Shown here: positions 10,884 through 64,000 of the stretch, piece by piece
Numbering within the stretch: the first letter of the stretch is position 1
Layout of the letters: every line of letters begins with the position of its first letter
Source of the DNA: Chryseobacterium sp. JAH
GTDB lineage: Bacteria; Bacteroidota; Bacteroidia; Flavobacteriales; Weeksellaceae
Assembly (NCBI RefSeq): GCF_001507335.1
Contig: NZ_LMAH01000012.1
Coordinates: 1-64,000, forward strand
Direction: 5' to 3'
DNA: 64,000 nt
Position numbers and translations under genes: made by a program
The notes under the pieces: model-generated
The model's input: only the letters and a program-made list of their open reading frames with translations
Told to the model about the DNA's origin: nothing
Database searches by the model: none

Positions 10884-10976
10884 ATGGATCTCTCCACTGA
10901 AAAACGAATTAATCTGACTTATAGGTTCGTGAATAAGCTCGTTAGGTATTCTAAATTTCCAATATTAGAATCTTAA
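10884..10976 (+). pseudogene. AlkB C-terminal remnant
   Basis: 31 codons whose EKRINLTYRFVNKL matches the KERINLTFRLVSEL end of the intact AlkB protein at 8807..9418. Nothing of the catalytic core precedes it. The similarity covers the last strand with the 2-oxoglutarate-binding arginines. It shows that a second AlkB-like gene, or a duplicate of the intact one, once existed here. Confidence 0.5.
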
Positions 10977-11036
10977 TAAGAGCTTACTGCACTGAACTAA
11001 ATTTTGAATTTAATCTTTAATGTTGTTGAGTCATCT

Positions 11037-13403
11037 TTAAGCTGTAGGTAATTCAAAGTAGAAGGTGGATCCATTTCCAAATTCGCTTTCTGCCCAAATC
11101 TTTCCACCATGAGCTTCTATAATTTCGGCACTGAGGTACAATCCAATCCCAAAACCTGCAATAATACTTTCCTGCTCGACTCTGTAGTATCTGTCAAACA
11201 ATCTAGCAAGATTTTCAGGCTTAATACCTATTCCTTCATCTTTGACAATTACTCTAATACATTCGTTCATTTTTTCAAAAGAGACACTGATGGTAGTTTT
11301 GTTAGCTGAATATTTTACGGCATTACCCACTAAATTGTTGATAACCTGTGCCAGTTTTAGACGGTCTGCATTGACGATTATTGATTTTGGTATGGTGAAA
11401 ATAAGATCGTGTGTCGAATACTGAATTTGATAGTCTGCTTGAATTTCTTTAAATAATTCAGAAAGGTCAAAATCCGTTCTATCGATATGTAATTTACCGG
11501 ATTCGAGTCTTGATATATTCAAAAAACCATTGATCATTTCAGTCATATTTTTGACCTGTTTCAGGCTCTGGGCAGAAGCTTGTTTTACAAACTGGTCATC
11601 AGACTTCTCTGCTTTTCGCAATAACAGTTGCAGGTAGGTATTGATTGAAGTTAATGGAGTTTTAAGTTCATGGGAAACCATGCTTATGAAGTCATTTTTT
11701 CTGATCTCGTCCAATTTTTTTTCTGTAATCTCATGGATAACTCCCGTAAAATATTCTTTACCATCCTTTTCTTGAACTTCGCCAATCGCACGAACCCACC
11801 TTTTCTTTTCATCGCGATAACCGATAATTTGATATTCCATATTGAAACGCGTGCCTTCCAAAAATGTACGCTCAACATTTGCAGCTACAGAAGCACGAAA
11901 GTCAGCATGTATCTGATTGACAGCTGCCTCATACGGCATAATTTCGTCTGGGTAGAACCCAAAAAGCTCTTTAAGTTTAGGTGAAGCTTTAAAGGTGCGC
12001 TCATCAGCGCTGATTTGAAATGTCCCTAAACCTGCTGCATCAACCGCCATTCTTAAATATTCTTCCGCACGTTTTATCTCTGCACCAGATAAATATTGAT
12101 CCGTAATATCCATCACAACGCCAGTGAATGCAGAAAAAGCCCCGGAAGGATCAGCTTTTAGATTGCCTATTGCACGAAGCCAACGGAGCCGCTTGTCATG
12201 GAGTCCGATAACAGGGTAGGTAACATCATAATCACCATTGTTGTAAATAGCATTTTCGAGCTTTGCCGCTACAATAGGCCGGTGTTCCTCAGTAATCTGT
12301 GCCAAAGCCTGTTCTATGGATAAAGATTCATTTTCATAATAACCGAACAATTCCTTTAAGCGGGCATCAGTAGTAAACTCTCGGGTAACGGAGTGGATGA
12401 ACCATGTTCCGAAATTTGCTGCATTAACTGCCAGACGGAAGGCGATCTCGCCTTCTACAATCTTTTCATTGGCTTTTATTAATTCATCATTTACTTCGGC
12501 TACTTCTTCCAGCGTAGTTGCCAACTCATGATTGGTATTTTCTAAATCTTCATTGAGTTGTTGAAGGGTTTTAGAATTAATTTCCAGACTCTCTTCCCAC
12601 TTTTTCCTATCTGTAACGTCTCTTGTTGCTCCTGCAACAGCTTCCAATTCTCCATCTTTATCCAGGACAGGAGTAAAAATATAGTCATAGACGCGTTTAC
12701 CTAATGTAGCATGGGGAAATGATACCTCTCCACGGATAGGAAGTTTGGTTTTCTTTATCTCATCAATTTCTTTTTCATGCATTTCTGCATGCCAAGGTTC
12801 ATAACCATTTTCTAACAAATTTTTACCAATAGAATCTTCCCATGATTTACCCCACATGTCGAGCAAAGCCTGATTTGCATAAGTAAAACGGTAGTCAAGG
12901 TCAAAAACATATAACAAATCTGGTGTAGATGAAGTGACGGTCTCGTAAAGTCTTTTCTGCCGATCAGATTTTTCCTGGGTGATACGAAGTGCTTTTTCAG
13001 CATCTTTTCGAAGTGTTATATCTTTTGCAGTTCCAAGCCACTCAATAATTTCGCCTCTTTCATCTAATATCGGTATTGCCTTTGAAAAAGTCCAACCTGG
13101 TGTACCATCAACTCTCTGAACACGATGCTCAAGCTGAAAAACTTTCTTTTCTCGAATACATTCCTCGATTGTCGCATTGACGATCTCAAGATCTTCTGGA
13201 TAAACATTGATTAATTTCCAATCTTTGGTTGGCTCATTGGCATCTTTTAGAAATCCTCTTCCGTCTAATTCACGCATTTCCGCCCAATCCGGGCTTAAAG
13301 AGTAAACGACATCAGAGGTAGCTTCAATAAGTGCTTTCAAACGATTTTCTGTTTCGGCAACTCTTTGCTGTTCAGAACTATGTTGATTAGAGAAATTTGT
13401 CAT
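11037..13403 (-). CDS. Large multi-PAS sensor histidine kinase
   Basis: 788 residues, soluble. At least four PAS/PAC units are visible: about 20-135, 150-265, 320-430 and 445-555, with GTAKDITLRK, GATRDVTDRK, GVVMDITDQ and GVIHEITEK at their PAC ends. A coiled coil (about 275-320, NTNHELATTLEEVAEVNDEL) separates the second and third. HisKA has SHELKTPL (H578). HATPase_c shows NNLVGNAVKYS, DEGIGI and GFGIGLYL. PAS 3 and 4 resemble each other and probably arose by internal duplication. There is no receiver domain and no adjacent regulator gene. The signal is unknown. Confidence 0.9.
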   Translation of the reverse strand: MTNFSNQHSSEQQRVAETENRLKALIEATSDVVYSLSPDWAEMRELDGRGFLKDANEPTKDWKLINVYPEDLEIVNATIEECIREKKVFQLEHRVQRVDGTPGWTFSKAIPILDERGEIIEWLGTAKDITLRKDAEKALRITQEKSDRQKRLYETVTSSTPDLLYVFDLDYRFTYANQALLDMWGKSWEDSIGKNLLENGYEPWHAEMHEKEIDEIKKTKLPIRGEVSFPHATLGKRVYDYIFTPVLDKDGELEAVAGATRDVTDRKKWEESLEINSKTLQQLNEDLENTNHELATTLEEVAEVNDELIKANEKIVEGEIAFRLAVNAANFGTWFIHSVTREFTTDARLKELFGYYENESLSIEQALAQITEEHRPIVAAKLENAIYNNGDYDVTYPVIGLHDKRLRWLRAIGNLKADPSGAFSAFTGVVMDITDQYLSGAEIKRAEEYLRMAVDAAGLGTFQISADERTFKASPKLKELFGFYPDEIMPYEAAVNQIHADFRASVAANVERTFLEGTRFNMEYQIIGYRDEKKRWVRAIGEVQEKDGKEYFTGVIHEITEKKLDEIRKNDFISMVSHELKTPLTSINTYLQLLLRKAEKSDDQFVKQASAQSLKQVKNMTEMINGFLNISRLESGKLHIDRTDFDLSELFKEIQADYQIQYSTHDLIFTIPKSIIVNADRLKLAQVINNLVGNAVKYSANKTTISVSFEKMNECIRVIVKDEGIGIKPENLARLFDRYYRVEQESIIAGFGIGLYLSAEIIEAHGGKIWAESEFGNGSTFYFELPTA

Positions 13404-13708
13404 GGTGTTTCTACTGAAATAAAATAAGTAAAAAATAAACCTTGGATTTTATTGAAAAAAAGATCTATACTTAGATATCATATAAATATTTTTCAGAAAA
13501 CCCGAAATAGAACTGATACGCAAATTCAAAAATATTAAAAGTAAAAACAAACTCAAAATATTTTGAATAATTTTAAAAAGAAAAATTAAAAACCGCAGGT
13601 CTGATTTACGGACGAATTCTAGATAAACTATACGGAGCAATAATACTAGAATTTTCTAAGCAAGAGTTGAGCCTTTCTTTTAGTAAAGTTAATTTGTAGT
13701 ATTTTCAG
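13404..13708. other. AT-rich intergenic region upstream of the kinase
   Basis: About 300 bases without a recognisable gene. It should hold the kinase promoter, but no convincing TTTG/TAnnTTTG pair was found. Confidence 0.4.
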
Positions 13709-13885
13709 TTAGCTTAGTAAAGAAAATAATATAGTGATTACGGGATTTACCCCTCCACGTGGCGGTTCCTCATCAGGAATGTTTGCAGAAACCTCTCGAG
13801 CTATGGAAACTACAATTTTTTCTGTAGAAGCAGTTTTAATACCTTATCAGCTAAAACACCGGATTTACAGTTTTCCCCAACGGCA
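13709..13885 (-). pseudogene. Frameshifted gene remnant, family not recognised
   Basis: The minus strand reads AVGENCKSGVLADKVLK in one frame and continues TASTEKIVVSIAREVSAN, IPDEEPPRGGVNP in another. The switch falls near 13835. Both halves look like real protein sequence, so this is probably the end of a decayed gene with one frameshift. No start codon is present. Confidence 0.4.
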
Positions 13886-13903
13886 GAATGCTATTTAATT
13901 TAA

Positions 13904-14173
13904 AAAATAATCACACTATACCGAACACTTAGGAAATATCAGATTAAGTTATACCAAGAAGGGTTCTGGAGTGGCGATCTTTCAGGTGAGAAATTTTTAT
14001 CCTTATCAGATGAAGAACAATGTTCAAATCGATCTGTTTGTAATTACGAACAAATCGGTAAAGAATTTCAGAAGGAACATGGGGCAGTTTTAAGCTACAT
14101 GACAGGACTTGATAATGCAGTATTTGGTTCTTTTGAGGATTTTTTGGAACAGTATAACTCACTTTCAGTGTAA
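13904..14173 (+). pseudogene. Truncated gene, C-terminal 89 residues, unknown family
   Basis: 90 codons open from an in-frame stop at 13901 to TAA 14171, with the only ATG close to the end. It contains KLYQEGFWSGDLSGEKF and KEHGAVLSYMTGLDNAVF, and ends FEDFLEQYNSLSV. The residue choice is that of a real soluble protein. The N-terminus is missing, so it is a fragment. It overlaps the fragment at 14165..14299 by nine bases tail to tail. Confidence 0.5.
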
Positions 14174-14299
14174 TGATTCTGGCGGCAGTGGAGGTGGTTT
14201 TTTAGCTTTATAATCTCTAATTATAGGGTCAATAAATCTTGTCATTAACGTTTTGTCTTCCTCCTCAAATTTCAACAAAATATCTGTATTGAGAAATTT
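14165..14299 (-). pseudogene. Gene fragment or small ORF with proline-rich tail
   Basis: 45 minus-strand codons: FLNTDILLKFEEEDKTLM, TRFIDPIIRDYKAKK and a PPPLPPESLH tail. An in-frame stop at 14300-14302 lies directly upstream, so only the C-terminal end is present, or a 26-residue peptide from the internal ATG. Family unknown. Confidence 0.35.
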
Positions 14300-14380
14300 C
14301 TATTTTGTGTAATTTAGCTTTTACTGAAATTAAATACGTATTAAAAAATAGTATCCAGCCATTTTGTTACCATCATTATA

Positions 14381-15139
14381 ATGAAAGAACTAAATCCATC
14401 AATCAGAAATCACTTAGTAATCGGAATCTTTATCAGTATATGGCTTTTCATTTTCGCATTTTTCATACGGCCTTTTGATGATGGAACAATAAGCTTTGCA
14501 ATGTGGATTTTGATAAGCGTTGGGTTTAGCCTTATTGCATTTCTTTGCTATGGACTATTGGCGGTTTTTCAAAAATTTTTGTATCAAAAAGTCTCAAAAT
14601 GGAATGTAGGTTTTGAAATAACCAGCATTGTATTTTTTCAACTTCTGTTTTTAATTAGCACTTATGTCTACTATAAATCAATTTTGAACGGAGGATACGC
14701 TTTTCTTGAATTTTTTAGAACAATCATTCTTAAATTGGCTTTAATTTCAACGCCGATTATAATCTTTGCAAGAATATATGTTGTGCAATTAATTCCGGCT
14801 AAAGTTGAAAATATTTTACCCGAAAATGAAGATATTATTATCAGAGGAGAAAATAAACTAGATATTTTAAAAATAATGAAATCTGACTTAATTTGTGTTT
14901 CAAATGCACAAAATTATGTTGAGATTTTCTTTTTAGATGGGCATCAATTAAGAACAAAGTTAATTCGCAGCACGCTCAAAAAAATCCAGAATGACTGTGA
15001 CTTTTTGGTTCAAATCCATCGTTCACATTTAATAAATCCATCTCATTTCAAATCTTGGAAAAACCCGGATACCATTTCTCTAACTCAAATTGAACTTCCA
15101 GTTTCTAAAAATTACAAGGAGCATCTATTGTCTTTATAG
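14381..15139 (+). CDS. Membrane-bound LytTR DNA-binding regulator
   Basis: 252 residues. The N-terminal half has four hydrophobic helices (about 12-32, 41-64, 83-103, 113-138). The C-terminal part (about 155-250) is a LytTR domain: CVSNAQNYVEIFF, LRTKLIRSTLKKI, FLVQIHRSHLINP and LPVSKNYKE. There is no receiver domain, so the membrane part itself may sense the signal and hold the DNA-binding domain at the membrane. Such one-component LytTR proteins are common in Bacteroidota. The amidohydrolase 104 bases downstream is a possible target. Confidence 0.85.
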   Translation: MKELNPSIRNHLVIGIFISIWLFIFAFFIRPFDDGTISFAMWILISVGFSLIAFLCYGLLAVFQKFLYQKVSKWNVGFEITSIVFFQLLFLISTYVYYKSILNGGYAFLEFFRTIILKLALISTPIIIFARIYVVQLIPAKVENILPENEDIIIRGENKLDILKIMKSDLICVSNAQNYVEIFFLDGHQLRTKLIRSTLKKIQNDCDFLVQIHRSHLINPSHFKSWKNPDTISLTQIELPVSKNYKEHLLSL

Positions 15140-15243
15140 TTTTCGTACCTAAAACAGTTCATTTCGTACCTAAACAGGTGTCACGTAATGATTCAGGGCA
15201 TATTACCTTTTATTTTCGCATCATCAATCTAAATAATTAATTT

Positions 15244-48469: not shown

Positions 48470-50536
48470 TTAGTTCTGTGCAAAATCAGTGGTTAAATTT
48501 TTCTGAAGGCTGATACCATTCAACCAATTTTCACATTCATTAATGGCTTCGGATGTTTTAATTTCTGCTTTTTTTACAGCAAATAGTTCGTAGAGATATT
48601 TACTCCAACCTTCCATGAAAATATTAATTCTGTTTTCCATTTCAGCTTTAGAAACCGGTAATTTGTCATTATCTACCTGACTTTTATAAATCTGAGAAAG
48701 ATTTTCGACTTTTTCCCTGAATGATAAAAAAGCATTTCTTAATGAACCAATTTTTCTGTTGCACTCCAGCGGTAGGTTTTGTCCTAATTTTTCATACTCT
48801 TTTTTATCTCTGTCCATAGCTAAAATCTCAATGTTTAATCCGTCATTTATTTTTTTAACTTCTAATATCTGATTGTCTAATCCCGAAATTTCATTTTCCA
48901 GATTTTCAATAGAAAACTTTATTTTTTGTTGCTGATGAGTTGTGCTTCGCTCGTGAAGCAAAGAATATATTTTGTTAACAATTAAAGTTAAAAGTAAAAC
49001 CCCTAAGGTTCCCAAAATAAAAACAAGCAAAAAATTCTCAGACAAAATAATATCTGAAGTAGCCATTTTTTGATCTATTTCGTTGGTCAAAAGTTTTATT
49101 TCCTCAATATTTCGTGCAACTTTATAAGCCATAAATGCATCGACAATTAATATTAAGGGCACGCCAAAATATGATTGAAAGTCTATTTTTTTTCTCATCT
49201 GACCATTAAAGTCTTGATTATATGAATTTCTAAGTATTAACTTCATCATTCCCAATGCTATGGGTATTGATACGAACAGAAATAAAAATAGAAGGCCACC
49301 AATGCCTTTTTCAGAAACTTTAGTAAAGACTTCGGGATCAAATATTTCTGTGTTTGATGGTATCATTCCTACTGCTAAAGATGCTTTAATGTCTTCTTTT
49401 GAAAAAATAAAAATGTAAGCCACAGATGTGTAAAAGACAAATATATAGGCTAGCAAGGATATTCCTAAGAGTCCTAGCACTGTCATTAAAAAAATATCCA
49501 ACGGAGGTTTAACAATGTCTGTTTTGAGATCGATGATTTTTTTTCTTACTAGCTCTATTTTATTTTGAAGAAAGGGAATTTGAGTATCAGTATTGGCCTT
49601 AATGATAAATCTTTTCTCATCGGTAGACTTTTCCAAAATATTGATCACATCCTGTGCATTTTTAGTTTCAGCATTAAGAGTGGATGTAAGGCTCTCAATC
49701 TCGTTTTCGGTTCTGATTTCTACATTTCCTATACTTAATTTTTGCTGTTCCTCTATTTTTGTTTTAAGTCGAGTCTTCTTTTCTTCAATGACCTCGATAT
49801 CGTTAATGAAATTCGAATATAAACTGTCCAGAGCTTGTGGTAAAATCTGATGATCTCCCTGGTTTTCGTGCGCTCTCTGATATGCATTGGCTTTAAGAAG
49901 GTTTTTATCAAAAGATCCTACTTCAGTGGCAATAATACTCGTTAAAACATCCTGGAAATCCTTTAATGACTTTTCCTGAAAACTCAACTCTTCTTTTTGT
50001 GAAAATGCAGGTTTTTCATAAGAGTCATTTAACGTTTCTTTCCATTCTGATTGCTCCTCTTTTTCAATATCCTCCAAACTTATTCCACTGTTAATTTTCT
50101 CAATTCTATTTTCTATCTTAAAGAAAGTGGTCACCAATTCGTCGACTGTTTTAGGAAAAGTCGTTACCAATACCTGTTCATGGTTGTTTTTTGCATTGTT
50201 TGACCAATTGTATGATCCGGAGATTGCAAGTCGTCTGTCGATGATACAGAATTTGAGATGCATCATACCGTATCCTATATTTTTAATACGATTAAATTTT
50301 ACGCCCATTATGCGTAATGCTTCAAAGTCCAGCTTTTCGTTGTCTGGCTGATCTGAAATGATTAACGAAATCTTCACTTGTTCAGCTGCCTTTTTTTGAA
50401 GTATATCAAAAAGTTCGGGATTGGTAAACCACGCCATTGCCACCAATATTTCTGATTGAGCGTTGAGCAGTTCAGTTTTTATTCTTGATAGAATTTCATC
50501 TGCATCAGATAAAGAATCTTGTACAATTGTTGTCAT
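48470..50536 (-). CDS. Membrane protein with one phospholipase-D-like HKD domain
   Basis: 688 residues. The N-terminal domain (about 8-130) has a complete HKD motif H93-L-K95-F-C-I-I-D100 and G107-S-Y-N, as in PLD-family nucleases and phospholipases; with only one motif it should act as a dimer. A coiled coil (about 180-340) leads to four predicted membrane helices (about 348-378, 410-432, 452-470, 500-522). A second coiled coil and a C-terminal soluble part follow. There is no signal peptide, so the PLD domain is probably cytoplasmic. It is the first gene of a three-gene operon. Confidence 0.85.
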   Translation of the reverse strand: MTTIVQDSLSDADEILSRIKTELLNAQSEILVAMAWFTNPELFDILQKKAAEQVKISLIISDQPDNEKLDFEALRIMGVKFNRIKNIGYGMMHLKFCIIDRRLAISGSYNWSNNAKNNHEQVLVTTFPKTVDELVTTFFKIENRIEKINSGISLEDIEKEEQSEWKETLNDSYEKPAFSQKEELSFQEKSLKDFQDVLTSIIATEVGSFDKNLLKANAYQRAHENQGDHQILPQALDSLYSNFINDIEVIEEKKTRLKTKIEEQQKLSIGNVEIRTENEIESLTSTLNAETKNAQDVINILEKSTDEKRFIIKANTDTQIPFLQNKIELVRKKIIDLKTDIVKPPLDIFLMTVLGLLGISLLAYIFVFYTSVAYIFIFSKEDIKASLAVGMIPSNTEIFDPEVFTKVSEKGIGGLLFLFLFVSIPIALGMMKLILRNSYNQDFNGQMRKKIDFQSYFGVPLILIVDAFMAYKVARNIEEIKLLTNEIDQKMATSDIILSENFLLVFILGTLGVLLLTLIVNKIYSLLHERSTTHQQQKIKFSIENLENEISGLDNQILEVKKINDGLNIEILAMDRDKKEYEKLGQNLPLECNRKIGSLRNAFLSFREKVENLSQIYKSQVDNDKLPVSKAEMENRINIFMEGWSKYLYELFAVKKAEIKTSEAINECENWLNGISLQKNLTTDFAQN

Positions 50537-56828: not shown

Positions 56829-59387
56829 TTATTTTCTTACCGTTTTCAGTGCATCAATCAACCTCCCCCTTTCCCCACTTCCCGTAGTAGAAAATCGTAA
56901 AAAAGGAACTCCATACTTCTCCACAATCTCATTCTTCATTTGATCCCTTTCACCTTGTCGGCTTTCCTTTTTATGGTATTCATAGCCATCAACTTCTATC
57001 GCCAAAACAGGGTTTTTACCTAGCTTATTGTAAATCAGAAAATCAAGATGGGTGGCGTGATGTCTGGCATATTGTTCTTCCTCTTCAGAAAGTTTGTCAA
57101 AATCCAACAGAAGATTTCTTAAAGGAAAATGCAGAACCACATCGTATTTGGAAAACTCGTCTTGTGATAGAACCTCTTTGATCAGCAGGTACATTAAATT
57201 TTCACTGTCAAAAACCGATTTTTTCTTTTGACCTGATAGGAGAACTCTTCGTTTCTCTTCATAGCCTTTGTACAGATAGTCAAAAATAGAGTGGAGCTCA
57301 CTGTTGACGATGGTGAAGTTGTGATAATCAATATAACGGATCAGGTCAGAGATGTTATTGTCTTTCTCATTTTCATTTCCATTGACAACCAGAATCAGCT
57401 GATCTTTTGCTCTCGAAATAGCAACGTTCAAACGATTCGGATTATCGGTAAAATCTGATATTTCATTATCTACAGTGGAAAGAATAATCACATCATTTTC
57501 TCTTCCTTGAAATTTGTCTACCGTATTAGCTTTGATCTTTGTTCCCTGAAATGTATTTTGCAAAGCAGAAATCTGATTTCGGTATGGAGTTACAATTCCT
57601 AAATCTACTGTTTCCAAACTTTGATATGGAATAATTTCCTGGGTAATAACATCAATCTGCCGCTGATTCATTCGTTCACGTGCATGATTTCCTGCTACGG
57701 TCTTGTAAACGATTAGGGGATTTCGGTCTGTTTTGACTTCGGATAAAATAATCAGCTGATTGTTGTAAAATTTCCGGTTGCAGAAATCAATGATTTGAGG
57801 ATGGCAGCGGTAATGTTCTTTTAAAAGGGTCTTAGGAATATCAGGAAATAATTCTGTGATCGATGAAAGCAAACTTTGGTTGGAATAACGATACGCTTCA
57901 GGAAGCTGATAGCTCTGAAAGATAAAATCTGTATTTTTTGCCGTTTGAGCATCAACCACATTCGGAAGCTGTTTTAAATCGCCTACAATCACCGCTCTTT
58001 TGGCGCAGGATAAAGCCAGCACACCTGTTGCTAAATCTACTTGCGATGCTTCATCAATAATCACAAAATCATACACGACATTTTCAGCAAGACTTCTTCT
58101 CAGAGAATAGGTGGTACTCATAATCACCGGATAGTCTTCGATGAACTCTAATGATTTTAAAAGAAGATCTCGCTCTGTATATTCCTTACGTTCTTTTCCG
58201 TTATATTTTTTATACAATGTATTTTTAAACAACTGCATCGAAACGTCTGTATAATCTTTCATTTTCTCATCGAAAGAAAAATCCTGCAATTCCGATTCTA
58301 ATTGTTGTCGCCTTAACTTGAGCTCTGAAATTTTTGTCGTGTAATATTTTGACTGAACCAATTTGATCAACTCCTGATAAGGCAGTTCATAAAAGTTTTT
58401 ATCTTTAACACCGTAAAGAAAAGGAAAGATCAATTTTCGCCACCAGTTGAATTTCTTACCCGATTGCTCGTAGTTTTCAATCGTGATCCAAAGCGAAAGC
58501 AACTTATCTGAACTGACATTCTTTTTAAAACGAACCTCTGCGAACAAAGTGTTAGTGAAGGAGAAATGCTGATATTCTGTTTCTATATTTTCAATTTCCA
58601 GTTTCAGTGATGCCAGCTCATTTTTGAATTTCAGTTTTTCTGAAAGCTGAGTAAAAAGTAAGGTATTAGACAATTTAAGAGCACTTGCTTCTTCAGCCGA
58701 TAATATCCAATCTGACAAATCAGGAATCTCAGCTTGGGATTCTATGAACTCTTTTTTATTTTGAGAACTTCCTAAAAGGGCTGCGATAAAAGAGATCCCA
58801 TTCTTATCCAGTTTTTCAAAAACATTCTTTGTTGCAGAATTATTGCTTGAAACCACTGCCACGGTTTGATTGTCCATCACTGCATTCGCAATGATATTTA
58901 AGATAGTCTGCGTTTTTCCAGTTCCGGGAGGACCTTCAATAACACTTAACGGTTTGGAGAAAGCTTCATTCACTCCATCTTTCTGACTGAGATTAAAACC
59001 AAATGGAAAAATCTCAGTAGGAGAGGAGTTTTCATTTCTCTCAGGTTGTTTTTGATTAAGATAGTTGGAAAGAATTGAATACTCAGGAATAAAAGAAATT
59101 CTCTCATAGCTGTCGGCAAGAATGTTATTTCCTTCCTCTGTTTTCAAGCCAATGGTCTCTGCAATTTCTTTTAAGTAACTGAAAATACTTCCTGCATTTT
59201 TTGTTTGAATCGCAGATTTTACAATTTGAATTTTGCTTTTGTTATAGGTGTATGATTTTCCATTGTTTTTAAAAACCACTATGTACTTCTCACCTGTGAA
59301 AGAGAAGGATTCTATTTCATCAGTTCTTTCTTTGCCGTCGATATAGATGGCTTGGGATTTTAGATGTGTAGTTGTGATTTTGTGCAT
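56829..59387 (-). CDS. Superfamily 1 helicase fused to a C-terminal PD-(D/E)xK-like nuclease
   Basis: 852 residues. Helicase motifs of the DNA2/UPF1 type: Walker A G152-PPGTGKT159, motif II VIIDEASQVD, motif III GDLKQLPNVV, HYRCHP, motif V DKFQGRENDVIIL and motif VI NVAISRAKDQL. Between motifs I and II lies a long coiled-coil insert. After residue 720 comes a nuclease-like domain with LDFLIYNK and AIEVDGYEYH, then FLRFST, as in DUF2726/Vsr-like fusions. It probably unwinds and cuts DNA or RNA. It lies 450 bases from the Avs-like gene, on the opposite strand. A short fragment of a related gene is at 32326..32440. Confidence 0.88.
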   Translation of the reverse strand: MHKITTTHLKSQAIYIDGKERTDEIESFSFTGEKYIVVFKNNGKSYTYNKSKIQIVKSAIQTKNAGSIFSYLKEIAETIGLKTEEGNNILADSYERISFIPEYSILSNYLNQKQPERNENSSPTEIFPFGFNLSQKDGVNEAFSKPLSVIEGPPGTGKTQTILNIIANAVMDNQTVAVVSSNNSATKNVFEKLDKNGISFIAALLGSSQNKKEFIESQAEIPDLSDWILSAEEASALKLSNTLLFTQLSEKLKFKNELASLKLEIENIETEYQHFSFTNTLFAEVRFKKNVSSDKLLSLWITIENYEQSGKKFNWWRKLIFPFLYGVKDKNFYELPYQELIKLVQSKYYTTKISELKLRRQQLESELQDFSFDEKMKDYTDVSMQLFKNTLYKKYNGKERKEYTERDLLLKSLEFIEDYPVIMSTTYSLRRSLAENVVYDFVIIDEASQVDLATGVLALSCAKRAVIVGDLKQLPNVVDAQTAKNTDFIFQSYQLPEAYRYSNQSLLSSITELFPDIPKTLLKEHYRCHPQIIDFCNRKFYNNQLIILSEVKTDRNPLIVYKTVAGNHARERMNQRQIDVITQEIIPYQSLETVDLGIVTPYRNQISALQNTFQGTKIKANTVDKFQGRENDVIILSTVDNEISDFTDNPNRLNVAISRAKDQLILVVNGNENEKDNNISDLIRYIDYHNFTIVNSELHSIFDYLYKGYEEKRRVLLSGQKKKSVFDSENLMYLLIKEVLSQDEFSKYDVVLHFPLRNLLLDFDKLSEEEEQYARHHATHLDFLIYNKLGKNPVLAIEVDGYEYHKKESRQGERDQMKNEIVEKYGVPFLRFSTTGSGERGRLIDALKTVRK

Positions 59388-59412: not shown

Positions 59413-59557
59413 TTAAACTGTAAAAGCTAAAAATGTAAAGTACAGATGATTTTTGAATTATTATAATGAAAAAAAATACAACTAACTAAGGATTCCCCTA
59501 AATGATATATTTATTTAATAGCCACTTTTACAATGCTAACAAATAAATAAAATAATT

Positions 59558-59704
59558 ATGGCAAAAACAGCAGCTTTTCATAGCATCAAACAGACCGTAC
59601 ACCACAACAATACTTCGTGTACGGAGGGTAACAACATTGAAACAGTAAACAAGCGAAGCGGAACAGGCGATAAGCCATTATGTTCACATTGCGCTAGACT
59701 GTAA
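59558..59704 (+). CDS. Small protein (48 residues), unannotated short gene
   Basis: ATG at 59558, TAA at 59702. It reads MAKTAAFHSIKQTVHHNNTS, CTEGNNIETVNKRSGTG, then DKPLCSHCARL. Histidines and three cysteines (one CxxC) could bind a metal. It is followed 16 bases later by a very strong terminator, which supports real expression. The type is found as a conserved small protein in Chryseobacterium-like genomes as far as I recall; no function is known. Confidence 0.7.
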   Translation: MAKTAAFHSIKQTVHHNNTSCTEGNNIETVNKRSGTGDKPLCSHCARL

Positions 59705-59720
59705 GTTTCTTTGGTTTATT

Positions 59721-59841: not shown

Positions 59842-62800
59842 ATGCAAAACATTGATTGGAATAATATTAGGCCACTAAATCATTCCCAAAAGAATAGCTT
59901 TGAAGAACTTGTTTGTCAATTAGCTAGAAATGACAGGTTCGAAAATGCAGTTTCATTTGTTAGAAAAGGTTCTCCTGATGCTGGTGTTGAATGTTTTTGG
60001 GTTCTGAGCAATTTTAAAGAAATTGCTTACCAAGCCAAATTCTTTACTTCTCCTTTGTCATCTACCCAATGGGGTGAATTAGATAAATCTATAAAGACAG
60101 CCTTAGATAAACATTCCAATCTATGCAAGTATATTGTTTCTATACCTCAGGATCGCGCAGATGCAAGAATTGAAGGTAAAACTTCTTTTTTGGATAAATG
60201 GAATGAATCTGTACTAAAATGGAAAAATTGGGCACAAGCCCAAGGCTTAGATGTGGATTTTGTTTATGAAGGTAGTTCGGAATTGTTAACCAAATTATCA
60301 ATGCCAGAAAATATAGGAAAAGCATATTTTTGGTTTAGTAAAAATGAATTTTCTAAGGAATGGTTTAACGACAATAATAAAAGGAAAGTAAAAGATCTTG
60401 GTGCAAGATATAGTGAAGAACTAAATATTTTATCTGATACAGCGAAAATATTTGAACTGATGATTTTCCCTTTAAAATTAAAAAAAATACTATTTTCAGA
60501 ATATGAAAGTTTAGAGATAGATTTTAAATCTTATTTAAATATTTCCAAACAATATCCAGAAATTCATGAAAAATTGATCAAGTTACTAAACAATTTTTTA
60601 GATAAAGGAAAGTTGTTGCATTCGTATAACATATCTGATTTAAAACAACCAGAAATACTTAGCCATACAATCTTAATGCAGATGGATTCATTAATAAGAA
60701 TACTTTACGAGAATTATGCTGCTGATGATATAAAAATCAACCGAATTAATAGTAAAAATACTCTTGCGCTAAAAGCTAAGTATAAAGTAACATCATATAG
60801 CATTAATAAGTTTTTAACCATTTTAGATTCTTTAGACAAAAAGATAGCTATAAATCCCTTTTTGCTTATTGAAGGAGATGCTGGCATAGGAAAATCACAT
60901 CTTTTTGCTGATTTTGTCACCACATTTTACAAAGATTTACCTTCAGTTTTACTGTTAGGACAACAATTTTATAGTGAAAACCTATGGTTGCAAATAAGTA
61001 ATCAGTTACAAATAAATTGTTCTAAGGAAGAATTTCTGGGAATTCTGAACTCTATAGGAGAGAGTTTAAATTGTCGTGTGCCAATTTTAATTGATGCTAT
61101 TAACGAAGGAGGAAAGCAGATATGGAAAGAACAACTTTCTGGTTTTGTCAATGATATCAGATCTTATCCTCATATTGCATTAATTATTTCGATTCGTAGT
61201 ACCTACACTAACTATGTCTTATCAAAAAGTAATCTAAAAGACTTTGAGAGATATACAATTGAGGGCTTCAGAAATCTACCTGAAGTAACCAAAACATTTT
61301 TTAAGTTTTATAAAATTAATGATCTTCCCGTGCCGATTCTAAACCCGGAGTTTAAAAATCCATTATTTTTGAAGTTATTCTGCATAGGATTAAAAGATAA
61401 TAACTTAGATACGCTTCCCGATGATTATGATAATATAACTGTAATCTATAATTACTATTATCACAAGATTAACAAGATATTAGCAGATCGGTTAGCTTAT
61501 GATTATAGGAATTTTAACTTAGTTCTTGAAGCAATATCTTTGCTGGCAGATGATATGGTTAGATATAAGACTTCTCAATTGAGTAGAGAAGTTGCAAATA
61601 TCATATTAATTGAGAAATATCGATATTCCTTGCCAAATGCAGGAATGATACTCTCAGAGTTGATTAAGGAAAATGTATTGAACGAAAATATTGTTGGAAA
61701 TAAGGAAATAATTTATTTTTCCTATGAAAAATTGGGTGACTACATAATAGCTAAAAGTCTTTTGAATTTAGACTCTAACAAGATAAAGCTTTTAGCGGAA
61801 ACTGGAACATACAGCATTGATCAATCATTTAACCTTTTTGAAGTAATTAAAAATGATATAGCTGTTAAAGCTAATTTAGGTATTATAGAAGCTATTTCTA
61901 TATTACTGCCCGAAATGTATAATTTAGAATTGTTTCAATTAAGAAAATCTACTACAGTTTTTTTAAAGCCGTTGCTAAAAAGCTTACTATGGCGTAACTC
62001 GTCTACAATAAAAGATATAACTATTGATTATATTAATAAAAATAGAAAGCTAGATAAAGCAGTGGCAAGCGAATTTGTGAACACTCTACTTCAATTGTCA
62101 ATCAAGCCCAATCATCGTTTAAATATATATTTTGTTGATGCACTTTTATCTCAAAAGAAGTTAACCGAAATCGATTTGATGTGGACCATTCATATAAATA
62201 ACTCTGAAGCCGGAAAAATACTTGTTAATTGGGCATTGGAAATATCTTCATTTTCTAATCTACATTCAAAAACAAAAAAAATATTTGCATTTTCTCTTTC
62301 ATGGTTATTTTGTTCAACCAATCGCGAAATTAGAGATAAAGCAACCAGAGCACTAGCTAAATTGCTTCAGAATGATTATTCTATTCTTATTAATTTGATT
62401 AATAAGTTTAAGGTGGTGGAAGATATTTATATTCTAGAACGTTTAGTGGGTGTGCTTTATGGAATCACTTTAAGGTTAAATGATAAAGAAAATATCTTGG
62501 AAATTGTGCAATTTGTAAATAGTATGATTAAAGCAAAAGAATTCAGACGTCATTTATTAATCGAAAATTATGTTCAAGGAATTATTAATTATGCTTCGAC
62601 AAAGGGAATATCTGATAAAAATGATTATATACAACCCGATATTACGAGTGATAAAGATCTATTTAAAGTTAAATTAGATTCGAAATTATTTTTTAAAAGA
62701 CATATAGCTCACATTTGTCATGATACACTTGTTAGCTATATTTCAGGAGAGCATAGTTTCATTCATAAATTTCTTGGTAAGAAAGCAAATTTTAGAATTT

Positions 62801-64000
62801 CTAATTTTTATACTTCAGACTTCGACTCATTGGATAGTATTATTAATAATACAGGAAATGTCGAAATTATAGGAGAAATTATAAAATTAATAAAATTAAA
62901 ATCAGATAGCGAATTAACGTCTATGATGAATATCGGTAACATTGATGATGATATACAAAATCTTTATGAACAGTTAATTAATTATGAAACTTTAAAACCA
63001 CAGGATGTTTTAAATATTAGATCTTTCTTTAATGAAGTTGCGAGCATAACTGATTCACAGTTTAACATTGATACTTTACAATATTATATTTCAAATGATG
63101 TTTTTAATATTATAGGATGGAACGGCAATGATTTTAAAGAACATGATTATCCAATATTAAGTTCGAATTTTTACAAAAAAAATCTCTTTAATTTACAAGA
63201 ATCTATAGGTGAAAAATATATTTTTATATCTTTTTATAAATGGTTATCTATAGTATCTAGTAATTATTTAATTGCTGAGATAAATCCTTCAAAATTTAAA
63301 TATAATAGGTATAAAGATCTTCGTAACCTTCTGCAGACAGATATTGATCCAACTATTTTTTTTTCAGGAATTATGCAGCAGAAAAATTCTTCTAATAAAG
63401 CAAGCGAAATTTATCAATTTAATTCAGAAGAATTGCTTGGTGAATGGATATGCTTAGGTTCTTCCGATCCTGGAGTTATAAAAAATAGTAACTTTCAGTT
63501 TGTACGAAAATGTTTAATTATTAACGCTTCTGATGCTGTTGATTATTTAAATTATTTGAGAAATGATGAATTGATTTTGAGGGATTTTCTTTATCTAAAT
63601 ACTTCTCAAAGTAATCACTATTTGGGTGAATTACATTGGAGAGAAGAATCTAAATTGATTCATAAACAAAGCAATAGAAGAGGTTATTTGGCTGCTATAA
63701 CCTATAGATGGTCAAAGGATAATGATTTTTCTTTAAATGATGATTTGCAATTTTTAGTTCCATCCTATCAACTTTCTCAGATTTTGGATATTGCTGCATT
63801 AATAGATGGTAGGTTTTATGATAAAGATGAAAATGTTGTAGCAGTAACTACATTTTTTAATAAAAATAATACATCATTATTTATAAATAAAAAGTACTTT
63901 ATTAACAAAATGAAAAGTAAAGGTTTAAATGCTTTAATATTGAAAGATTACGCTAAAAGCCGAAGTAAAGCTAAAATTGTAAAAAATATTTCACTTATAC
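59842..64000 (+). CDS. avs4: Avs4-like antiviral STAND NTPase with N-terminal Mrr-like nuclease (runs off right edge)
   Basis: Open for 1386 codons from ATG 59842 to the edge, with no stop seen at the places I checked in frame. N-terminal nuclease: SFEELVCQLARND, D46 in GSPDAGVE50, and Q64-A-K66, the D...(Q/E)xK site of Mrr-type enzymes; WGELDKSIKTALDKHSNL follows. The STAND NTPase has Walker A G345-DAGIGKS352 and Walker B ILID418-AINEG. The rest (about 600 on) is a long helical repeat region that should be the sensor. Avs proteins recognise conserved phage proteins and then form active nuclease assemblies; Avs4 senses portal protein in described systems. A standalone gene, AT-rich. Confidence 0.82.
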   Translation, partial: MQNIDWNNIRPLNHSQKNSFEELVCQLARNDRFENAVSFVRKGSPDAGVECFWVLSNFKEIAYQAKFFTSPLSSTQWGELDKSIKTALDKHSNLCKYIVSIPQDRADARIEGKTSFLDKWNESVLKWKNWAQAQGLDVDFVYEGSSELLTKLSMPENIGKAYFWFSKNEFSKEWFNDNNKRKVKDLGARYSEELNILSDTAKIFELMIFPLKLKKILFSEYESLEIDFKSYLNISKQYPEIHEKLIKLLNNFLDKGKLLHSYNISDLKQPEILSHTILMQMDSLIRILYENYAADDIKINRINSKNTLALKAKYKVTSYSINKFLTILDSLDKKIAINPFLLIEGDAGIGKSHLFADFVTTFYKDLPSVLLLGQQFYSENLWLQISNQLQINCSKEEFLGILNSIGESLNCRVPILIDAINEGGKQIWKEQLSGFVNDIRSYPHIALIISIRSTYTNYVLSKSNLKDFERYTIEGFRNLPEVTKTFFKFYKINDLPVPILNPEFKNPLFLKLFCIGLKDNNLDTLPDDYDNITVIYNYYYHKINKILADRLAYDYRNFNLVLEAISLLADDMVRYKTSQLSREVANIILIEKYRYSLPNAGMILSELIKENVLNENIVGNKEIIYFSYEKLGDYIIAKSLLNLDSNKIKLLAETGTYSIDQSFNLFEVIKNDIAVKANLGIIEAISILLPEMYNLELFQLRKSTTVFLKPLLKSLLWRNSSTIKDITIDYINKNRKLDKAVASEFVNTLLQLSIKPNHRLNIYFVDALLSQKKLTEIDLMWTIHINNSEAGKILVNWALEISSFSNLHSKTKKIFAFSLSWLFCSTNREIRDKATRALAKLLQNDYSILINLINKFKVVEDIYILERLVGVLYGITLRLNDKENILEIVQFVNSMIKAKEFRRHLLIENYVQGIINYASTKGISDKNDYIQPDITSDKDLFKVKLDSKLFFKRHIAHICHDTLVSYISGEHSFIHKFLGKKANFRISNFYTSDFDSLDSIINNTGNVEIIGEIIKLIKLKSDSELTSMMNIGNIDDDIQNLYEQLINYETLKPQDVLNIRSFFNEVASITDSQFNIDTLQYYISNDVFNIIGWNGNDFKEHDYPILSSNFYKKNLFNLQESIGEKYIFISFYKWLSIVSSNYLIAEINPSKFKYNRYKDLRNLLQTDIDPTIFFSGIMQQKNSSNKASEIYQFNSEELLGEWICLGSSDPGVIKNSNFQFVRKCLIINASDAVDYLNYLRNDELILRDFLYLNTSQSNHYLGELHWREESKLIHKQSNRRGYLAAITYRWSKDNDFSLNDDLQFLVPSYQLSQILDIAALIDGRFYDKDENVVAVTTFFNKNNTSLFINKKYFINKMKSKGLNALILKDYAKSRSKAKIVKNISLI

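Follow-up and report, generated by a model that had tools for sequence, protein, structure and literature searches.

At the right-hand edge of the 64,000-nucleotide stretch of Chryseobacterium sp. JAH DNA analysed here (the window; positions 1 to 64,000 of contig NZ_LMAH01000012.1, referred to as C12) lies one long reading frame that joins an Mrr-type nuclease to a STAND NTPase, and it raises the question of which kind of antiviral STAND (Avs) receptor it encodes and which phage protein that receptor would detect. The first-pass annotation had answered Avs4, with possible recognition of phage portal proteins. Our analysis leads to a different answer: with a probability of about 0.82, the frame codes for an antiviral STAND receptor that consists of a single protein and belongs to the Avs2 lineage; it would sense a phage protein, oligomerise and cut DNA with its nuclease, so that infection is stopped. 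Its core is of Avs2 ancestry, the key residues of its nuclease and NTPase are invariant, and its sensor is unusually diverged. The gene and its parts are as follows.

59842..63999 in the window, with the stop at C12:64011, + strand: avs2-like gene, 1389 aa (frame; PADLOC Avs2, 865 bits; PDB 9o4e, 316 bits)
59842..60321, + strand: Mrr/PDDEXK-type nuclease domain, residues 1-160 (invariant columns, model, match to an Avs4 nuclease profile)
60322..60831, + strand: helical linker, residues 161-330 (all-helical in the model, poorly conserved)
60832..61401, + strand: STAND/NACHT-like NTPase core, residues 331-520 (42% median identity to relatives, fold matches)
60874..60897, + strand: Walker A motif GDAGIGKS, residues 345-352 (conserved in relatives)
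61093..61107, + strand: Walker B region DAINE, residues 418-422 (conserved in relatives)
61402..62616, + strand: winged-helix/arm and helical-repeat region, residues 521-925 (relatives' matches stop here; helical in the model)
62617..63999 in the window, + strand: diverged C-terminal sensor, residues 926-1389 (column retention, outlier test, model)

The frame opens with the ATG at 59842 on the + strand and runs for 1386 codons within the window. On the full contig (77,689 bases) it continues past the window edge for three more codons and the stop (C12:64000-64011), giving 1389 aa in total. The single long frame noticed at first reading is thus intact on the extended contig, with no frameshift, and the truncation attributed to the window edge is true of three residues; a large missing C-terminus was rejected, as merely these three codons lie outside. 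In addition, a stop-free run of 464 codons (from residue 926 to the end) has a chance of about 1e-20 at the local base composition, and GC content peaks at codon position 1 and is lowest at position 3 in nearly all parts of the gene. The gene is intact.

A search against Avs profiles, which had been proposed as a check of the Avs4 identity, gave its best matches in another STAND group, the outcome that the first-pass annotation had itself named as refuting: all the PADLOC Avs profiles that matched were Avs2 profiles (six, at 344-865 bits, the best with 864.8 bits over residues 2-925), and the sole other PADLOC match up to E 10 was mad8, with 16 bits. The only NCBIfam match was the Avs2 model NF041813, with 615 bits, below its equivalog cut-off of 1000 bits, and the only match at E<=10 in a sequence search of the PDB was the Avs2 structure 9o4e, with 316 bits over residues 170-924 and a weak second segment at 1064-1206, inside the sensor. 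The closest relative, L026, which belongs to the same genus, scores 1037 bits against NF041813 and passes its cut-off. Compared with Avs2 (AVAST type 2; 9o4e; NF041813; PDLC02161-02166), the JAH protein is homologous in the NTPase core and the helical repeats and retains traces of the sensor, and PDLC02164 covers the same nuclease N-terminus; it differs in its lower NCBI score, in the loss of most conserved sensor positions and in its N-terminal domain, which is not the same by sequence as that of 9o4e, matched only from its residue 165. Because the protein falls below the NCBI cut-off and has not kept the conserved Avs2 sensor, it is best called Avs2-like and classed as an Avs2 variant, not as a plain member.

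That it could be an Avs4 protein recognising phage portal proteins is very improbable, and at the sequence level the Avs4 assignment is refuted. The Avs4 models PDLC02169 and NF041815 match nothing in the JAH genome at E<=0.001, although Avs4 models work in relatives, where NF041815 matches 20 of the 296 genomes of the family, four of them above its cut-off of 1500 bits. The whole protein has no phmmer match to the Avs4 structure 8dgf at E<=10, whereas Avs4 proteins of the genus match it at full length (L050, 984 bits over 1-1554), and blastp against these genus proteins gave nothing better than E 0.01, in the nuclease region only. The genuine Avs4 proteins of the genus, 1555-1562 aa long, are other, separate genes, and the portal claim falls with the rejected label from which alone it had been drawn. 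In favour of Avs4 are the similar N-terminal fold, with an Mrr-type nuclease followed by a STAND domain, and the nuclease itself, whose profile matches Avs4 nuclease domains with 95.9% hhalign probability (E 5.7e-9, in a one-to-one comparison) and more weakly 8dgf by hmmsearch (E 0.15). These profile comparisons make the two nucleases distant relatives, which accounts for the earlier guess, but there is no significant sequence match outside it, and an Mrr-type nuclease is common to many Avs2 proteins and so not diagnostic of Avs4. Foldseek with residues 1-560 also places 8dgf first, at 12% identity; however, this ranking is no argument against Avs2, because 9o4e is absent from the Foldseek matches and the two families are therefore not compared. 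In the PDB structure search with these residues, Avs4 is followed by generic AAA/NACHT entries, and the absence of other families is uninformative.

The broader reading, that a Bacteroidota genome here encodes an antiviral STAND protein of Avs type carrying an Mrr-type nuclease, was borne out. The residues taken at first reading for the nuclease active site (D46, E50, Q64 and K66) are exactly where they had been placed; the first three are kept in 78 of 78 aligned relatives and K66 in 77, and all four, together with E21 and E22, are invariant across an alignment of 25 nuclease domains. In the model of residues 1-560 (mean pLDDT 86), a nuclease-like core precedes a NACHT-like domain, and the order of its elements (helix-strand-strand-strand-helix-strand) fits PDDEXK, with the acidic residues and the Q-x-K motif on this core. 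Pfam Mrr gave no match to the protein sequence. The Walker A motif and the DAINE sequence are also located precisely where they had been read: G345, G348, G350 and K351 are invariant in 78 of 78 relatives, as are D418 and N421, and E422 is found in 77; together with the NACHT-like fold, they identify the core as a STAND NTPase. The long helical repeat region described earlier holds for residues ~520-925 and not for the last ~240 residues, which are predicted to be alpha/beta. The model of residues 190-1386 (mean pLDDT 73) has helical repeats to ~925, a low-confidence part at 926-1073 and the alpha/beta domain at ~1143-1386. Fold matches of residues 1-560 are Avs4 and the NACHT domains of NLRC4 and NLRP3, and Foldseek with residues 190-1386 lists NLRP7, Avs3, NLRC4 and Avs4. 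The NLR proteins share the NACHT-like NTPase fold (Z ~12-13 for NLRC4 and NLRP3), a likeness at fold level only, with another effector and sensor, while Avs3 (8dgc) shares the STAND domain plus repeats (Foldseek E 4e-6 for residues 190-1386) at 12% identity, and neither PADLOC nor the PDB search gave a sequence match to it.

With JAH itself counted, the family has 15 genomes with a match out of 296 (E<=1e-10), the genus 9 out of 173 and the phylum 7 out of 395 (both at E<=1e-30), and most of the blastp/tblastn matches end at residue 915-940. L026 aligns over residues 1-1367 at 38% identity, and searches of family, genus and phylum and the wider scan found no closer relative. A contig scan with the single protein as query found no relatives, and an alignment-based scan found 488 across many phyla (80 kept, 77 used), all 77 carrying D46, E50 and Q64. 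The N-terminus varies within this Avs2-related clade: L031 and L034 have a trypsin-like one, with weak Pfam matches and, read by eye, H, D and GFSGSG/GFSGAG motifs, and L030 and L046 have a short one without the nuclease motif. Judged by sequence, this clade has exchanged effectors while keeping a common STAND core. Two Avs2-related genes are adjacent in one Chryseobacterium genome (L034:6156-10673 and 10908-15212), one with a trypsin-like N-terminus and the other with an Mrr-type nuclease motif; the latter gene forms with L035, L036 and L037 a remote Avs2-like Bacteroidota group, which matches the NCBI Avs2 profile weakly (71-84 bits in the three tested).

The surroundings of the gene look like a defence island. 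A low-GC stretch (~25-31%, C12 ~59,500-69,500) begins with the avs2-like gene, and the remaining contig is mostly at 31-38% GC. Adjoining the gene on the + strand are two overlapping frames, one like the PD-T4-10 A antitoxin (C12:64376-64816, L003:9377-9817; 62.8 bits) and one like the PD-T4-10 B toxin (C12:64803-66065, L003:9804-11066; 41.4 bits, only over 37-125), in the order and with the overlap described for the phage-defence pair; PD-T4-10 A and B form a toxin-antitoxin defence pair (PMC9519451). A KGGVGR ATPase with TPRs, an HTH protein and a DUF6932 protein stand in a row on the - strand (C12:66465-69021, L003:11466-14022), and PADLOC candidate-defence profiles match the ATPase (PDC-M28B-like) and the DUF6932 protein (PDC-M63A-like); the row is a possible uncharacterised defence operon. 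The helicase upstream of the avs2-like gene (56829-59387, - strand), of the SF1 type and with DUF2726 at its C-terminus, is partly similar to the Mokosh MkoA/MkoC helicases, and a long Phospholipase-D domain protein with hydrophobic stretches (48470-50536, - strand) has weak DrmC similarity (40 bits). A short intergenic frame, MAKTAAFHSIKQTVHHNNTSC...CSHCARL, was read by eye just upstream on the + strand (~59557-59705, approximate coordinates). From C12 ~69,500 (L003 ~14,500), at a SusC/SusD-like pair, GC content rises from ~29% to 44-45%, far higher than the 31-38% found elsewhere on the contig, and this segment adjoining the island is probably foreign. Among the neighbours tested in the flanks of relatives, some of them short, no fixed partner gene was found; only the helicase and the phospholipase-D protein matched there, weakly and partially.

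Special attention was given to the C-terminal sensor. Of the Avs2-conserved columns, judged against reference proteins, the JAH protein has kept 85% within its nuclease and 77% within its NTPase, but only 13%, 44% and 38% in three sub-regions of the sensor; L027, L028 and L029, of the same genus, keep 79-100% of the conserved sensor columns and L026 keeps 67-69%. When sensor identity was regressed on core identity over all pairs of 96 sequences, the JAH protein was the lowest of all (median residual -11.9 points, z -5.4). It is important to note that the alignment scan preferentially picks up loci whose sensor motif is conserved. In a repeat of the test with 19 motif-independent sequences, JAH was again the lowest (residual -11.0, z -4.3); L026 has residuals of -5.0 (third lowest of 96) and -5.7 (second lowest of 19). 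Identity between JAH and L026 falls from 75% in the nuclease to 56% in the NTPase and to 25% in the sensor; the other listed pairs with ~75% nuclease identity share 49-77% in the sensor. By column retention and identity, then, the sensor has changed far more than in relatives. The sensor alone (459 aa) has weak matches outside L026, and against the PDB it gave no match to 9o4e, only insignificant ones. Several Avs2-conserved positions nevertheless remain (E1120, I1122, G1123, K1125, Y1126, D1167-P1170, E1263 and P1307), which is why we read the C-terminus as a diverged Avs2 sensor and not as an unrelated domain.

Judged by the characterised Avs proteins, this receptor is likely to sense a ligand, oligomerise, cut DNA and cause abortive infection. 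A phage protein made during infection would bind the C-terminal region (~926-1389), possibly together with the helical repeats; the ATP-loaded STAND domain would then oligomerise and gather the N-terminal Mrr/PDDEXK domains, and these nucleases, which probably cut DNA once the phage protein is detected, would halt the infection while sacrificing the cell. Avs1-3 are reported as sensors of the large terminase subunit (PMC12724215), Avs4 as a portal sensor and one Klebsiella Avs2 as also sensing Ksap1 (PMC12724215; PMC12931631). With most of the Avs2-conserved positions gone from the sensor, we think that its ligand is a terminase of Bacteroidota phages that has diverged strongly, or else another phage protein.

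Under the first of these alternatives, a serious possibility somewhat short of even odds, the protein would be an ordinary Avs2 with the large terminase subunit of Bacteroidota phages as its ligand, its sensor having diverged only as the terminases did. The Avs2 core and the retained sensor motifs fit this, as does the terminase sensing reported for Avs2 proteins (PMC12724215). However, other Bacteroidota Avs2 proteins, including L027, L028 and L029, keep most of their sensor columns, and even the related L026 keeps about two thirds, so the host phylum alone is insufficient to explain the loss. It is possible, though short of probable, that the sensor on this Avs2 chassis has been re-targeted and now reads a phage protein that is neither terminase nor Ksap1 nor portal.

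The loss could also mean that the sensor is decaying under relaxed selection on the C-terminus, the gene being on its way to losing function. The low GC content of the sensor region (24-26%) coincides with the loss of conserved positions, but the linker at 161-330 is equally low, so this composition is not sensor-specific; the nuclease, a self-harming domain, retains its active-site residues, and simple decay is unlikely because the frame is open and periodic to its end. We find it similarly improbable that the high nuclease identity to L026 reflects exchange by recombination rather than a fast-changing sensor. The steep fall in identity to L026 along the protein and the exchange of N-terminal domains in the clade would suit such a swap, but fourfold-site identity in the nuclease (0.38) lies inside the span of the other, likewise saturated parts of the gene (0.09-0.57); as these sites, few in number, are saturated along the gene, a recent swap is not indicated. 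Moreover, the sensor is outlying relative to the NTPase core too.

The Avs2-like reading bears on the family in two ways. Avs4 cannot be recognised by the presence of an Mrr nuclease on a STAND protein, since proteins of the Avs2 lineage with such a nuclease are numerous across bacteria. As for which phage proteins Avs receptors read, and how this choice changes in evolution, a protein with a conserved effector and switch and an unconserved sensor means that sensor swaps with relatives could separate the chassis from ligand choice. If the re-targeting is true, the JAH protein and L026 would be a natural pair for mapping ligand change in Avs2.
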